Shown here one piece after another: positions 6,203 through 30,469 of a stretch of 64,000 bases of DNA (positions within the stretch are counted from its first letter, which is position 1; each line of letters starts with the position of its first letter). This DNA is from Schaalia sp. Marseille-Q2122 (GTDB taxonomy: Bacteria > Actinomycetota > Actinomycetes > Actinomycetales > Actinomycetaceae), in NCBI RefSeq assembly GCF_903645355.1, contig NZ_CAHJXR010000001.1, forward strand, positions 1 through 64,000, in the 5' to 3' direction. Below the pieces are notes generated by a model. It had not been told where the DNA came from, did not search any database, and saw only the letters and a program-made list of their open reading frames with translations. Both the position numbers and the translations under genes were made by a program.

Positions 6203-11228
<5,026 letters not shown>

Positions 11229-11368
11229 CGCCAAGCACACCGCTCGGCACACACACGCGCAAGCAAAACACGCTCACAACCACCATACAGGTTCACGACC
11301 AACCCACACCCCCCACCAAAACAAAGACCGGGGGGCGTACACAAAACAACACAATACTGGTCGACCCT

Positions 11369-11488
11369 TTTGCGGCGGCAATAGCGTGGGGGAAACGCCC
11401 GGACCCATCCCGAACCCGGAAGCTAAGCCCCACAGCGCCGATGGTACTGCACCCGAGGGGGTGTGGGAGAGTAGGACACCGCCGCAAC
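11369..11488 (+). rRNA. rrf: 5S ribosomal RNA
   Basis: The 120-base sequence has the terminal helix TTGCGGCGG / CCGCCGCAA, the core CCCGAACCCGGAAGCTAAGC and the segment GATGGTACTGC. It is 140 bases after 23S and is followed by a terminator. Confidence 0.95.
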
Positions 11489-22066: not shown

Positions 22067-23350
22067 ATGACACGACGCTCACTTGCACTGAGTCTGGCCG
22101 CCGTCGCAGCGGCGGCCAGTATGACCCTCGCCGCCTGCGGAGGCGGTACCGCTCCGGCTTCCTCGGGCGGCGCAGCCGATGGGAAGATCCACCTCGTGTG
22201 GGACATGTGGGCCAGCGGCGCCGACGAGGTTGAATGGCTTGAAAAGACTGCAGAAATTGCCCGCCAGCAAAACCCTGACGTCTCCATTGAGCTGCGCACC
22301 TCCGGCTGGGAAGATTACTTCACGAAGCTGACAGCAAATATGTCCTCCGGCAATGTTTCCTGTTTGACCTCCATGAACGGCCAGCGTGTGAGTGCTTTCC
22401 ATCAGGCGCTCTCACCTCTGACGGAGGAGGACTTGAAGATTGCAGGCCTGAGTGAAGACGATTTCGCTGAAGGAGCCTTCGAGATCCTCAGCCACGACGG
22501 CAAGCTCTACGGCGTGCCCTACGACGTGGCCGCCATGCTCATGTTCTACAACAAAGACATGGTGGCCGAGGCGGGCATCGAGGCCCCCAAGGGGGATTGG
22601 AAGTTCGATGACTTCCTCGCAACAGCCAAGGCCCTGACCACCGACAAACACAAGGGATTCGGTATTGCTCTGGGTGAATACCAGTGGCTGGCCATGCCCA
22701 TTGCCATGTCGGGCCTGCAGCCGGTCAATGAGGAAGGCAAGCTGGACCTGACCAACCCCAAATTCCTTGAGGCAGCCGAGTGGTACGCCAATCTGGTGAC
22801 GAAAGAGAAGGTCGCAGACCCTGCACCTTCAGCCTCTGAAACCGCGTGGGGTGAGGAACAATTCCTAGCCGGAAACGTCGGCATGGCCATTGCGGGCACG
22901 TGGAATGCTCGGAAGAACTACACCAACGAGGCCGGTTTCAAGGCTGGAGCAACACGTCTGCCGCAGGGCGAGGCAGGCCCCCTGGGTCTGGTTCTCGGAT
23001 CGGGTTTTGGTATTGGCGTGTCCTGCGAGGGCGCTGAACGCGAGGCCGCGTTGAAGGTCTTGGGTTCCTTACTGTCCAAGGACGCCCAGGACTACATGGC
23101 ACATGTGGGGCGCTCCTACCCCGCATTGAAGGCCTCTCAGGACCACTACTTCGATTCCTTCCCCGAAGAGATCCGCGAGGAAGTGAAGGTCGCCTTCGAC
23201 GAGGCATTCAAGGGTGTTGTCGGTCAGCGTTCCACCATGACATGGCCCCAGCTCACCGAGTACCTCACTCCGAACCTGGTGCCGGTCTACACCGGCGACG
23301 CCCAGATGAAGGACGTTCTCGAAGCCGGGCAGAAGCAGTTCGGGAACTGA
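22067..23350 (+). CDS. ABC sugar-binding lipoprotein (orphan)
   Basis: The 427-residue protein has a lipoprotein signal peptide with lipobox LAAC (Cys24) and the family 1 extracellular solute-binding fold (LYGVPYDVAAMLMFYNKDMV; FLAGNVGMAIAGTWN). It follows the GH29 gene closely and is probably co-transcribed. No permease or ATPase genes follow; a terminator comes next. It must therefore borrow a transporter encoded elsewhere, or act as a sensor. Confidence 0.87.
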   Translation: MTRRSLALSLAAVAAAASMTLAACGGGTAPASSGGAADGKIHLVWDMWASGADEVEWLEKTAEIARQQNPDVSIELRTSGWEDYFTKLTANMSSGNVSCLTSMNGQRVSAFHQALSPLTEEDLKIAGLSEDDFAEGAFEILSHDGKLYGVPYDVAAMLMFYNKDMVAEAGIEAPKGDWKFDDFLATAKALTTDKHKGFGIALGEYQWLAMPIAMSGLQPVNEEGKLDLTNPKFLEAAEWYANLVTKEKVADPAPSASETAWGEEQFLAGNVGMAIAGTWNARKNYTNEAGFKAGATRLPQGEAGPLGLVLGSGFGIGVSCEGAEREAALKVLGSLLSKDAQDYMAHVGRSYPALKASQDHYFDSFPEEIREEVKVAFDEAFKGVVGQRSTMTWPQLTEYLTPNLVPVYTGDAQMKDVLEAGQKQFGN

Positions 23351-25581: not shown

Positions 25582-25587
25582 TATACT
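25582..25587 (+). promoter_or_regulatory. -10 element for the thiamine-regulated unit
   Basis: TATACT lies 8-10 bases before the riboswitch P1 helix. No good -35 is seen. Confidence 0.5.
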
Positions 25588-25594
25588 GTGAGCT

Positions 25595-25682
25595 GCACGG
25601 GAGCCTCGCGCAGAGGCTGAGAGGGAGGTGCGCGCCTCCGACCGGTGAACCTGATCTGGGTGATGCCAGCGAAGGGACGCAA
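25595..25682 (+). ncRNA. TPP (THI-box) riboswitch
   Basis: The conserved THI elements are present in order: CACGGGAGCC at 25597, GGCTGAGAGGGAGG with a CGCGCCTCC return, then GACCGGTGAACCTGATCTGG, and GATGCCAGCGAAGGGA to close. Helices P1 to P5 can be drawn. It lies about 90 bases before the kinase start. Bound thiamine pyrophosphate should lower expression of the two downstream genes. Confidence 0.95.
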
Positions 25683-25772
25683 CCCGCTTCACCAGCCCCT
25701 CACCCTCGCCGCGCCCGCGCGCACGCACTGATGCACATCCGCTGTGACACACGGTTCCACCAGAGGGGGATC

Positions 25773-26987
25773 ATGGGAACGACCAGCCGCGACGCTGACC
25801 TCCACACCACGGGCGAGGACACCGACTCTCAGACACTCGATATTTCACCTGTCTGGGCGCCTATCACCCTCCATGACGCCCAACGGGTCTGCGCCGCACT
25901 CGCCCAGCCCGCCCACGCCATCACGATCCTCAGCGTTTCTGCGCGTCCCACGGCGGCGGCCTCGTTGGTTGACACCGATCGCGGGCTGATCTTCCTTAAA
26001 CGCTACGCTGCCAGTGCCGTCACCGCCGACCACCTGGCCGTCACCCACCGCTACGTCAACCACCTGGCCGCAGAAGGACTACCCACCCCGCCCTTCCTGC
26101 CCTTCAGTGACGGGCGTACCACCTGGAGCGAGGGCGAGGCCCTGTGGGAGGTTTGCGAGGGCGCTCGCGGGGAGGACCGCTACCGGGATGCGCACTCCTG
26201 GCTGCCTCCGCACACCCTTGACGAGGCCCGCGAGATTGGCCGCCAATGCGCGCGCATCGCTGTCGTTGGAGGCACCTACGAGGCTCCTCGCAGCGCGCCC
26301 GCCGTCTACCAGTCGCGGTTTGGGTTGTTCGCGGGCGGGGCCGACACCCTGGATGCGCGCCTGGACGCGTGGGTTGGGGAGCGCCCTCACCTGGCAGACT
26401 TCTGTCGCGAACAAGGTGTTGATCTGCAGGAACGCTTAGACTCTCACCGCCAGTACGCTGCCCGCATTGACGCTGTGCTCACTGAGCACGCCGGTGAGGT
26501 CCCCACCACCTGGACCCACGGGGACCTCCACTGCTCCAACCTCATGTGGGAGCCCGGCACAGCCACGGTAACGAGCATTATTGATTTCGGCTTGGCTGAC
26601 CGGAACTGGAGCGTCTACGACCTGGCCGTCGCCATTGAACGCAACGCCTTCCTCTGGCTCGACATCGGAGCCGGGCACAGTGATGCTATTCGACGGGATG
26701 TCGCGCAGGCCGTGATCGACGGCTACGAGAGCGTGCGCCCCCTCACCGCCGTGGAACGGGCGCTTCTGCCCGCCATTATGCCCCTAGTTCAGGCCGAAGC
26801 TGCGTTGAACTGGATCACCTACCAGTGGGGGACCTTGCGTAACGCACAGGCCGCCACCTGGAGCCTTGAGGTGTTCTTCGGCGCCCACACCCACTGGTTC
26901 GATACCCCCGAAGGAGTATCCTTCACCCACTGGCTCAGCGACATCTTGGCCGCCAACGGCACTCACTCAAGCACCCAGCCCAGCTGA
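25773..26987 (+). CDS. APH/choline-kinase-family phosphotransferase under TPP control
   Basis: This 404-residue protein has the aminoglycoside/choline kinase fold: an N-lobe with FLKRY as likely ATP lysine region, THGDLHCSNLMW near residue 248 (catalytic loop) and SIIDFGLADRNW near 268 (metal-binding DFG-like). The ATG at 25773 follows AGAGGGGGATC; in-frame starts further up overlap the riboswitch and are rejected. Control by thiamine pyrophosphate and a THI5-like neighbour 42 bases downstream make a thiamine, thiamine-precursor or hydroxymethylpyrimidine kinase likely, as ThiK of E. coli belongs to this fold. That function is inference. Confidence 0.8.
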   Translation: MGTTSRDADLHTTGEDTDSQTLDISPVWAPITLHDAQRVCAALAQPAHAITILSVSARPTAAASLVDTDRGLIFLKRYAASAVTADHLAVTHRYVNHLAAEGLPTPPFLPFSDGRTTWSEGEALWEVCEGARGEDRYRDAHSWLPPHTLDEAREIGRQCARIAVVGGTYEAPRSAPAVYQSRFGLFAGGADTLDARLDAWVGERPHLADFCREQGVDLQERLDSHRQYAARIDAVLTEHAGEVPTTWTHGDLHCSNLMWEPGTATVTSIIDFGLADRNWSVYDLAVAIERNAFLWLDIGAGHSDAIRRDVAQAVIDGYESVRPLTAVERALLPAIMPLVQAEAALNWITYQWGTLRNAQAATWSLEVFFGAHTHWFDTPEGVSFTHWLSDILAANGTHSSTQPS

Positions 26988-27029
26988 ATTCCCGATCTAA
27001 CCCCCAAAAATCTACGAAAGGTTGCATCC

Positions 27030-27944
27030 ATGAGCGTCACGCGCGTACGCCTCGAATACGTCCACCCTTGGCCTAACCACGCCGGCCTTTTCCTCGCCCG
27101 GAAGAAGGGCTTTTTCGCTGAGGAGGGCTTGGATGTCGAGCTCATTTCGGATGGCTGGGACCGGGGTGATGCTGCGGCTCTCCTGGCTCGTAATGAGTAC
27201 CACGTGGCCTCCCTGCGGCTGGGCCAGCTGCTTGAATCGCGCCTGACGGGCACGCCTTTCGTCGCGGTGGCAACCCTCAACCAGCGCCAACTCGGTGCCG
27301 TTATCACCACCCCAGAAACCGGCATCCGCCGCTTCGCTGACCTTGGGGGTAAGTCCGTGGCGATCCCGCCCGTTGACCGTCTCATCCGTGAACTCCAGCA
27401 GGCTGTCGAGGCCGACGGCGGTGACTTTGCGAAGGTGACCGTCCTCGATCCGGGCAGTGGCGTGTGGGAACCCGATATTCGTGCTGTCGAGCAGGGCCAC
27501 TGGGACGCCATTATCAACGTGCGCGCCTGGGAACCATTCCAGGGCAATACTGCTCCCGAGGACGTTGTCATCCTTGATTTTGACGCGGTGAAGGTCGCTC
27601 CCCATCACTCCTACTTCCTGTGCGTCCGCGAGGACCTGCTCGAACGCAACCCCGAGTTCGTCCGTCGCTTCCTTTCAGCCGCAGCGAAGGGATACCACGC
27701 GGCCATGGCTGACGAGGACGCCGCCGTCGACGCCATGACCGTGCCCATGTGCCATATCGATCCAGCCGTCCTGCGCGCCTCGGTGCGTGAAATCCGCGAC
27801 TCCTGGTTCACCCCTGAAGGGCGTTGGGGTGAGATTCAAGAGGAGCTCGTCAATGGCTACACCAAGTGGATGCTTGAAGGGGACTTCTTCGACGCGCCGG
27901 TGGGGGATACCGCCGGAGCCTGGACGAATGATCTACTGCCCTAA
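27030..27944 (+). CDS. NMT1/THI5-like pyrimidine-precursor binding protein, no signal peptide
   Basis: The 304-residue protein matches the NMT1/THI5-like periplasmic-binding fold (EYVHPWPNHAGLFLARKKGF; GLDVELISDG; DLGGKSVAIPP). Bacterial ThiY-type members deliver formylaminopyrimidine or HMP-like thiamine precursors to an ABC transporter. This one begins directly with the first fold strand and has neither signal peptide nor lipobox, and no permease or ATPase gene is adjacent. It also lacks the CCCFC motif of fungal Thi5 enzymes. It belongs to the TPP-riboswitch unit with the kinase. It may work in the cytoplasm or be part of a split transporter. Confidence 0.78.
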   Translation: MSVTRVRLEYVHPWPNHAGLFLARKKGFFAEEGLDVELISDGWDRGDAAALLARNEYHVASLRLGQLLESRLTGTPFVAVATLNQRQLGAVITTPETGIRRFADLGGKSVAIPPVDRLIRELQQAVEADGGDFAKVTVLDPGSGVWEPDIRAVEQGHWDAIINVRAWEPFQGNTAPEDVVILDFDAVKVAPHHSYFLCVREDLLERNPEFVRRFLSAAAKGYHAAMADEDAAVDAMTVPMCHIDPAVLRASVREIRDSWFTPEGRWGEIQEELVNGYTKWMLEGDFFDAPVGDTAGAWTNDLLP

Positions 27945-29379: not shown

Positions 29380-30258
29380 TCAGAGATTGAGATTGATCTG
29401 TAGCGCGGTGTAGCTGTCGTCAACGAGCCATGGTGCCCAGGAGGTGGTGAACTTTTCCTGGGCGCTGCGGCCAAGGGTTTCACCTGCATGGATGCGATTG
29501 CCCTGCGCGATGTAGCCAATGATATCCATGAGGTAGGCGTAGACCTCTTGTGGATTCTGGCAGGAGGATCGCGGCGCAATCACCTGCACCTCCGGCATCC
29601 CAATATCCTTCAAGCCGTAGGAATAGAAGTGCCACTCCTGCTTGTCGCTGGTGAGCCAGAGGGGAGCGATAAACAGTGCCGGGAGGGGATCGTCAAGGAC
29701 AGCCCCACGGAAGGTGGCGGCATCGTAGGTGGTCGCAGTGCGTCCCGAGTAGACGCCGAGGGCTTCAGGGAGGCCAAGTAGGTGGGCCAGCAGGGTTGCG
29801 TGAGCGGTGATGGCCTCGACCGCCTCTCCAGTATTGCGAGGTGCGGGCCGCGTGGCGAAGGAGGGAAGGTCTGCGACGACGAGGTGGTGGCTATATCCCT
29901 GGAGGGCGTCGGGCTCGGGGAAGAAGAAGGGGTGAGTGTTACTTTCGGCCTCTTCGGCGGGGATGGCGTAGGGAGCAAGTGAGATGAGGTAGGTGCGCCC
30001 GTCGCGGGAGGCAAAGAAGCTGAGCGGGTCATCGCTTGATGCTGGTGAGGAATCCTTGTCAAGGGTCATGCCCGCATCTGCGAGGGTGTTGAGGAGGGAG
30101 AACTCGCTGGGCGCCTCGGAGAGGAGGACGAAAGCGATGTTGAGGAATTCTTCCGGCAGGGTGAAGGACGGTTCGGGAACCTTAGGGGAAGCATCGGCGG
30201 CCCGGGGCGTGTCTGCCTGAGCGCGCGAAGCAACAAGGTGTTTTAGCCAGCCAAACAT
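29380..30258 (-). CDS. DUF4261-like hypothetical protein
   Basis: The 292-residue protein starts at the ATG at 30258 (MFGWLKHLV); the frame is open further upstream but a GAAGAAAG site precedes this ATG. Its middle and C-terminal parts (AITAHATLLAHLLGLPEALGVYSG, GLKDIGMPEV, PWLVDDSYTAL) resemble DUF4261 proteins, whose role is unknown. It is soluble and has no catalytic motif I can name. Confidence 0.55.
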   Translation of the reverse strand: MFGWLKHLVASRAQADTPRAADASPKVPEPSFTLPEEFLNIAFVLLSEAPSEFSLLNTLADAGMTLDKDSSPASSDDPLSFFASRDGRTYLISLAPYAIPAEEAESNTHPFFFPEPDALQGYSHHLVVADLPSFATRPAPRNTGEAVEAITAHATLLAHLLGLPEALGVYSGRTATTYDAATFRGAVLDDPLPALFIAPLWLTSDKQEWHFYSYGLKDIGMPEVQVIAPRSSCQNPQEVYAYLMDIIGYIAQGNRIHAGETLGRSAQEKFTTSWAPWLVDDSYTALQINLNL

Positions 30259-30469
30259 TGGGTGCTTTCTTCGGGAGGAGGGGAGGCGTGTGGGGGAGCG
30301 TCGTCCTTGACGCTTGAGTGCCATGCTACAAGGCAAAGAGGGTGGGGTGTATAGGACTTTGGCGGGTGCCGTGAAGTATGAAGGCGCGTGTTGCACAGAG
30401 GGGGATGGCGCAGGATCTGACACTCGTCACACTTTCGTCGAGGAAGGTGACAAGGTGTCAAAAAGTGAA

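Follow-up and report, generated by a model that had tools for sequence, protein, structure and literature searches.

What could a small-molecule kinase and a relative of thiamin-binding proteins do together behind a thiamin pyrophosphate (TPP) riboswitch, when the second protein has no apparent means of leaving the cell? This question is raised by a locus of Schaalia sp. Marseille-Q2122 (Actinomycetaceae), contained in the first 64,000 nucleotides of contig NZ_CAHJXR010000001.1 (hereafter the window), where a TPP riboswitch is followed by a kinase of the APH fold and by an NMT1/THI5-like protein without signal peptide, for which the name THI5cyt is used here. A first-pass annotation of the sequence had proposed that the two proteins form a thiamin-precursor salvage pair in the cytoplasm, for example by phosphorylating a pyrimidine precursor. 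Our results show that the pair is conserved across at least two families and is preceded by TPP riboswitches. They agree with the thiamin-regulated, cytoplasmic part of that proposal, on the strength of co-occurrence and of the riboswitches, but not with pyrimidine phosphorylation.

A gene pair conserved behind TPP riboswitches

The survey of the pair in other genomes, which had been suggested at first pass, was run on 151 Actinomycetaceae genomes (thresholds of E up to 1e-30 for THI5cyt and up to 1e-15 for the kinase) and on 112 Bifidobacterium genomes around B. tsurumiense, Gardnerella included (E up to 1e-30 and up to 1e-20, respectively), and gives a near-absolute co-occurrence. Among the Actinomycetaceae, both proteins are encoded in 10 genomes, the kinase alone in one and THI5cyt alone in none; in the Bifidobacterium sample, each protein is encoded in 15 genomes, and these 15 are identical. 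The corresponding Fisher p-values (9e-15 and 6e-19, respectively) ignore shared ancestry. The two genes are adjacent in 14 of the 15 carriers of the Bifidobacterium sample and lie on separate contigs in the last one (G154), whose locus L029 has no kinase. Among named genome contigs, at least 12 loci are found, distributed between Schaalia canis (two), an Actinomycetaceae metagenome-assembled genome (MAG), Gardnerella (two), Bifidobacterium (six) and a Microbacteriaceae MAG. One bifidobacterial genome (G209; L071 and L073) has two diverged THI5cyt genes and a single kinase match.

A full-length TPP riboswitch match is present upstream of the unit, or of the operon containing it, in all 22 long loci, at a score above the Rfam gathering score in 14 and of 48.9-53.8 bits in eight; none is found in L073, a short locus, or in L055, which has the kinase only. 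Behind the riboswitch, three types of neighbourhood are observed. In nine Actinomycetaceae loci (L036-L044), the riboswitch is followed in turn by the genes for the kinase, an exported NMT1 protein, a permease, an ATPase and THI5cyt. The kinase, the binding protein and THI5cyt were found in all nine, the permease and the ATPase also, by tblastn and with Pfam confirmation in L039, and the riboswitch is above the gathering score in each (L038 being scored through the named locus L026, apparently the same MAG contig, each with a length of 189069 bases). In the second type, a ykoE gene is present in all eight Bifidobacterium and Gardnerella loci (confirmed in the three tested by a match to PF09819, a family that includes YkoE). 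After it come the kinase and then THI5cyt, in the reverse order in Gardnerella; in L029, only THI5cyt follows. The riboswitch is above the gathering score in both Gardnerella loci and, in all six Bifidobacterium loci, full-length and below it (50.4-53.8 bits, E 5e-8 to 7e-7). In the third type, that of the window and of S. canis, no thiXYZ-type or ykoE transporter gene adjoins the pair. As for the Microbacteriaceae locus, THI5cyt is placed there between two riboswitches, together with ThiM-like, ThiD-family and transporter-like open reading frames (ORFs).

Across these loci, gene order varies (kinase first, THI5cyt first, or transporter genes in between) and both genes are kept regardless. The kinase and THI5cyt are very probably functionally coupled. 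Their distance matrices are alike (Mantel r 0.89), which is not evidence of contact, because the transporter's binding protein compared with THI5cyt reaches 0.99 in nine operons.

The first-pass annotation had also noted that no permease is nearby, which is correct for the window locus but not across the family, as nine other Actinomycetaceae have transporter genes between the kinase and THI5cyt. It had further considered that an association of these genes with a thiXYZ transporter would argue against its reading; such an association is found in these nine genomes, but the cytoplasmic role of THI5cyt still stands, because the linked thiXYZ-type transporter has its own exported binding protein. 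By our identification, the two kinds of transporter genes beside the pair are probably ThiXYZ2 and YkoEDC2, both given as transporters of vitamin B1 in PMC6593275 (Table 1); the passages of that paper on these systems name neither a kinase nor a cytosolic THI5-like partner. No paper describing the pair was recognised in the literature on thiamin, THI5, the kinase and these genera, most subscription journals being outside the search.

Fold, residues and selection of THI5cyt and of the kinase

Export was assessed by the hydrophobicity of the protein start and of its in-frame extension (Kyte-Doolittle mean over 11 residues), no signal predictor being used. The window ORF of THI5cyt has no longer in-frame start, and the protein begins at the first strand of its own fold. 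Among the 21 THI5cyt sequences checked, the window one included, five have a longer in-frame ORF and none has a signal-like start, extensions included (highest mean 1.14), while a signal-like start is present in all six exported binding proteins examined for the linked transporter (2.15-2.64). The absence of signal and lipobox reported at first pass is thus confirmed, and THI5cyt is predicted to be located in the cytosol.

The solved proteins closest to THI5cyt in sequence are 4nmy, a thiamin-bound substrate-binding protein of Clostridium difficile (E 2e-36), 3ix1, which binds formylaminopyrimidine (FAMP; E 1e-23), and THI5 (E 9e-15). The THI5cyt model, of high predicted local distance difference test score (pLDDT 90.8), has 4nmy as its best structural match (Z 29.4, root-mean-square deviation (rmsd) 4.2, 294 residues aligned). 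THI5cyt has the NMT1/THI5 fold of the ThiY/ThiXYZ substrate-binding proteins (PF09084; Z of 29.4 and 29.3 against 4nmy and 3ix1), but not their export signal. It shares NHxG, W-E/D and TN motifs with 4nmy and the ThiXYZ-type binding proteins and differs from them by the lack of signal peptide, by a first cleft loop longer by one residue and by 19 invariant residues of its own.

THI5cyt forms its own clade (support 100/99 and 98/99). Invariant columns number 53 in 14 THI5cyt rows, and 24 of them are common to at least eight of ten thiamin-group proteins, N16, H17, W167, E168, T299 and N300 being among the shared residues. The 19 specific ones (E9, Y10, V11, W14, R24, R45, G46, R63, N84, Q87, R117, R151, A160, V164, G172, L182, H192, H193 and W280) are found in none of the ten thiamin-group rows, the 4nmy row being a partial chain with gaps at columns 9 and 10. 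In the secondary structure of the model, R45, R63, R117, H192 and H193 are situated in loops or at the ends of strands or helices. These are probably the ligand-binding places of the fold, where the residues would line the cleft.

THI5cyt is under very strong purifying selection and is no relic. Between this species and S. canis, the ratio of nonsynonymous to synonymous substitution rates (dN/dS) is 0.014 for THI5cyt and 0.159 for the kinase of the first pair, rough values at a dS of about 1.2, and 0.033 and 0.163, respectively, for the second pair (see below). The two species are closely related, and among eight proteins of the region THI5cyt is the best conserved between them (96.7-97% identity); the others range from 55 to 96% (one compared over part of its length), with 96% for the leuB-like protein and 71.8-73% for the kinase.

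The kinase has the sequence signature of the APH fold, HGDxHxxN and D(F)G, and its catalytic residues H249, D251, N256 and D271 do not vary across the 20 kinases aligned. The HGDLHCSN and IIDFG motifs described at first pass are thus both present, in a protein matched by the Pfam APH family (Table 1). Its model (pLDDT 89.5) is closest to the homoserine kinase 2ppq (Z 24.8, rmsd 4.2, 305 residues aligned), with N-acetylhexosamine kinases at Z 23.3-24.1 and choline kinases at Z 18-19. The window kinase scores 56 and 51 bits against the NCBIfam homoserine-kinase models, far under their cut-offs of 271 and 256. In the Microbacteriaceae MAG, another small-molecule kinase, of APH_6_hur type (L086:1608-2561; PF04655, 52 bits), is located just upstream of a TPP riboswitch, itself preceding two TenA-like ORFs by reading of the ORFs.

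The window locus and the other thiamin loci of the genome

The features of the locus are collected in Table 1. The THI box recognised at first pass is confirmed by a full-length match (1-105) to the RF00059 covariance model, searched over the 64 kb window, at a score above the gathering score of 54.3 bits. RNA folding of positions 25587-25790 gives a structure less stable than its own shuffles (z 1.53), with no clear expression platform. The kinase ORF starts at an ATG, with GAGGGGG just 5' of it, and its end coordinate is that of the stop codon.

Table 1. Features of the riboswitch, kinase and THI5cyt locus, in window coordinates.
Feature	Position	Strand	Evidence
TPP riboswitch aptamer (THI box)	25587-25695	+	Rfam RF00059, 63.9 bits, E 3.1e-10
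APH-fold small-molecule kinase, 404 aa	25773-26987	+	Pfam PF01636 (APH), 73.6 bits, E 2.8e-20
Catalytic motif HGDLHCSN of the kinase	26517-26540	+	Alignment; H249, G250, D251, H253, S255 and N256 invariant in 20 kinases
DFG metal-binding motif of the kinase	26583-26591	+	Alignment; D271 invariant in 20 kinases
THI5cyt, predicted cytosolic NMT1/THI5-like protein, 304 aa	27030-27944	+	Pfam PF09084 (NMT1), 143 bits, E 1.6e-41; no hydrophobic start
H192-H193 of THI5cyt	27603-27608	+	Identical in all 20 sequences of the alignment; position of the THI5 Cys-rich motif

By reading of the ORFs, the unit is flanked by a leuB-like gene and, downstream, by an ilvE-like gene and then an ABC exporter pair from 30515; upstream of the pair, a lipoprotein-type sugar-binding-like protein (22067-23350) is encoded without permease. 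No thiX- or ykoE-like gene is found between 20 and 34 kb of the window, and the sole ThiZ match in this interval (29%, at about 33.4 kb) is part of the exporter, kilobases away from the pair. An ORF of unknown kind (29380-30423) has 55% identity to its S. canis counterpart, the adjoining ilvE-like and exporter proteins having more than 90%. A complete rRNA operon (16S, 23S and 5S) occupies positions 6203-11487, and its 23S alignment contains insertions relative to the Rfam consensus.

The whole genome has five TPP riboswitch matches, three above the gathering score and two at 51.7 and 48.9 bits. Their targets, by reading of the ORFs, are the window pair, a thiM/thiE/tenA group (its TenA identified by Pfam), a ykoE group in which the ykoE gene (PF09819) is accompanied by ECF-type ATPase and permease sequences, a thiB-like gene with permease and ATPase, and a second kinase and THI5-like pair. 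This second pair is diverged, with 52% identity to the window pair in THI5cyt and 39% in the kinase, and S. canis also has both diverged pairs. A third NMT1 protein of the genome, with a lipoprotein-like stretch in the N-terminal region, is encoded beside a permease-like ORF. The ThiE gene of the thiM-thiE-tenA group (G000:C3:167907-168472, L008) is in two pieces with a TGA inside, and is either a pseudogene or affected by an assembly error. No ThiE match is found in the S. canis genome (G151).

Metabolic setting and possible role of the pair

Thiamin enzymes were searched for in 24 genomes, 20 carriers of the pair and four non-carriers. ThiC is absent from all 24 (0/20 and 0/4). Each carrier has exactly one end enzyme over the cut-off, ThiL in 12 and thiamin pyrophosphokinase (TPK) in eight; seven carriers have weak TPK matches, of 38-41 bits over about 40-50 residues, for a cut-off of 76.4. 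ThiE is intact in seven of the carriers, TGA-interrupted in the present genome, and not found over the cut-off in the other 12 (G034 having a 20-bit match below it). Because of these 12, the known route would not allow most carriers to use the pyrimidine alone, and the pair should therefore have a ligand with both rings. Moreover, the binding proteins belonging to the linked transporter cluster with thiamin-bound 4nmy (support 94/92, and 92/92 in a second tree, just short of the strongest level) and not with the FAMP-binding ThiY. Both observations argue against the phosphorylation of a pyrimidine precursor put forward at first pass, and pyrimidine salvage by the pair is unlikely. Finally, ThiE is not found over the cut-off in 10 of the 12 ThiL-only carriers, which consequently depend on a thiamin kinase or on an external source for thiamin monophosphate (TMP).

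The reading that we put first, as a tentative but plausible one, is that the pair is a TPP-repressed, transporter-independent cytosolic module capturing a thiamin-type vitamer, in which the kinase traps the vitamer and its partner binds or processes the phosphorylated product. TPP riboswitches are known to repress on TPP binding. At low TPP, the riboswitch would permit the synthesis of the two cytosolic proteins, and a vitamer would enter by the importer that the host happens to possess, be it ThiXYZ-type, YkoE or ThiBPQ. The kinase would phosphorylate it, thiamin or a thiamin-like compound being the presumed substrate, and thereby trap it. THI5cyt, a thiamin-binding-protein fold kept in the cytosol, may then bind and perhaps process the phosphorylated product, in a role and at a step that we infer. 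The product could finally be converted into TPP through ThiL in Actinomycetaceae, or through dephosphorylation and TPK in bifidobacteria. The enterobacterial thiamin kinase ThiK is also an APH-fold enzyme; a ThiK-like enzyme is of the same fold class as our kinase and would fit the ThiL-only genomes, but the eight carriers having TPK do not need one.

Several observations weigh against this capture module. With regard to the kinase, the NCBIfam homoserine-kinase models match all 20 sequences, and more closely than any other model, and no thiamine-kinase model is among the NCBIfam matches of these 20 kinases at E up to 0.01, in a library that presumably holds such a model. The bifidobacterial carriers have TPK and no ThiL, and a plain thiamin kinase would be useless there. 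Conversely, the non-carriers G009, G042 and G066 have ThiL without TPK or ThiE over the cut-off and no such kinase, so that the kinase is not the sole answer to the ThiL-only gap, and in the non-carrier G132 ThiL, TPK and ThiE are all absent over the cut-off. The four non-carriers of the same genus in which riboswitches were searched for (G009, G042, G114 and G132) have one match each; its target could be read in two of them and is ykoE-like in G009 and thiB-like in G132. With regard to THI5cyt, 3ix1 (Z 29.3) is in a structural tie with 4nmy, and the NMT1-family tree leaves the place of the clade unsettled (73/47 for the thiamin group), a grouping with THI5 not being rejected (approximately unbiased test, p-AU 0.47). 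Phosphate binding by the new Arg and His residues is a suggestion drawn from their position in the model. With regard to pairing, the kinase-only genome G027 (L057:7138-8256) has no THI5cyt, and no riboswitch match is present in the short stretch surrounding its kinase; its only TPP riboswitch match (35 bits, under the cut-off) precedes a thiB-like ORF elsewhere. The kinase is also absent from the THI5cyt locus of the Microbacteriaceae carrier G158, whose whole genome was not searched for it; the presence of ThiE, a ThiD-family protein and ThiM- and TenA-like ORFs in this carrier would also be compatible with pyrimidine use.

An alternative, which we regard as possible but doubtful, is that THI5cyt is a new enzyme. 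The kinase would activate an unusual vitamer, such as a modified or damaged thiamin, from which THI5cyt would make thiamin or TMP in an undescribed salvage pathway. This would account for the occurrence of the pair in genomes whose end enzyme is ThiL as well as in those with TPK, for the tighter constraint on THI5cyt than on the kinase, and for the invariance of seven new Arg or His residues (R24, R45, R63, R117, R151, H192 and H193). Furthermore, the structures of THI5, DszB and MqnD, with the functions given in their titles, indicate that the fold can become an enzyme, and all three are located in the cytosol. However, this alternative has a candidate neither for the catalytic residue nor for the substrate. 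In the same doubtful range, the pair might be a two-enzyme vitamin B1 route of bifidobacteria, Gardnerella and Actinomycetaceae, leading from an imported thiamin derivative, which is not a known nutrient, to thiamin phosphate without ThiC, ThiE or TenA.

It is less likely that THI5cyt is a cytosolic sensor regulating the importer or the kinase, in the manner presumed for the binding-protein-like regulatory domain of cyanobacterial NrtC and CmpC. The structural matches of THI5cyt do include such domains, from nitrate and bicarbonate transporters (Z about 19), and THI5cyt belongs to the operon of a thiXYZ-type transporter in nine genomes. Nevertheless, it follows the kinase and not the transporter, no thiX-like gene adjoining it in the eight bifidobacterial and Gardnerella loci or in the window. 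The constant linkage or fusion to an ATPase, typical of NrtC and CmpC, does not apply to the free-standing THI5cyt. A thiZ-like ATPase adjoins it only in the nine thiXYZ-type loci, and none is found beside it in the window, in the second copy, in S. canis or in the eight bifidobacterial loci, the ThiZ match of L029 being kilobases off and in another gene.

A bacterial THI5, producing hydroxymethylpyrimidine phosphate (HMP-P) from pyridoxal 5'-phosphate (PLP) and histidine while the kinase supplies a phosphorylated precursor, appears quite improbable. In yeast THI5, Lys62 holds PLP and His66 is consumed, according to the part of PMC10848271 bearing on these residues. THI5cyt has the fold of this HMP-P synthase, likewise without export, and its model matches the THI5 structures (4h65, 4h67, 4h6d and 4esx) at Z 24.8-27.1; the tree, as seen above, allows the grouping. 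The absence of ThiC from all 20 carriers is in agreement with such an activity, and in the Bifidobacterium sample, where ThiC is present in 68 of 112 genomes, it is rarer in carriers (5/15) than in others (63/97; p 0.025, uncorrected). On the other hand, all 14 THI5cyt rows have a hydrophobic residue (L, V, I or M) at the position of K62; at that of H66, 13 of them have Q, E or D and one has H; and the stretch aligned with the Cys-rich motif is APHH or TPHH, once ARHH. HMP-P would find no ThiE over the cut-off in 12 of the 20 carriers, five bifidobacterial carriers keep ThiC, and the four non-carriers lack ThiC as well. THI5-type HMP-P synthesis was thus rejected on the missing K62 and H66 and on the missing ThiE, and simple replacement of ThiC on the five of 15 bifidobacterial carriers in which ThiC is present. 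Lastly, the ThiL-only carriers in need of a thiamin kinase or of imported TMP would be accounted for by a non-orthologous thiamin kinase accompanied by a stray binding protein without signal, but this is very improbable, as near-strict co-occurrence, an own clade with its own residues and a dN/dS of 0.014, on which a decayed binding protein was rejected, speak strongly against a relic.

To return to the capture module, its interest lies in two proteins that travel together behind TPP riboswitches, one of them a binding-protein fold kept in the cytosol and strongly selected. For many carriers, the lack of ThiC and ThiE closes the known route of thiamin synthesis, and the pair may decide which form of vitamin B1 they can use in animal hosts. 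THI5cyt is predicted to represent another cytosolic function arisen in the fold that gave THI5.

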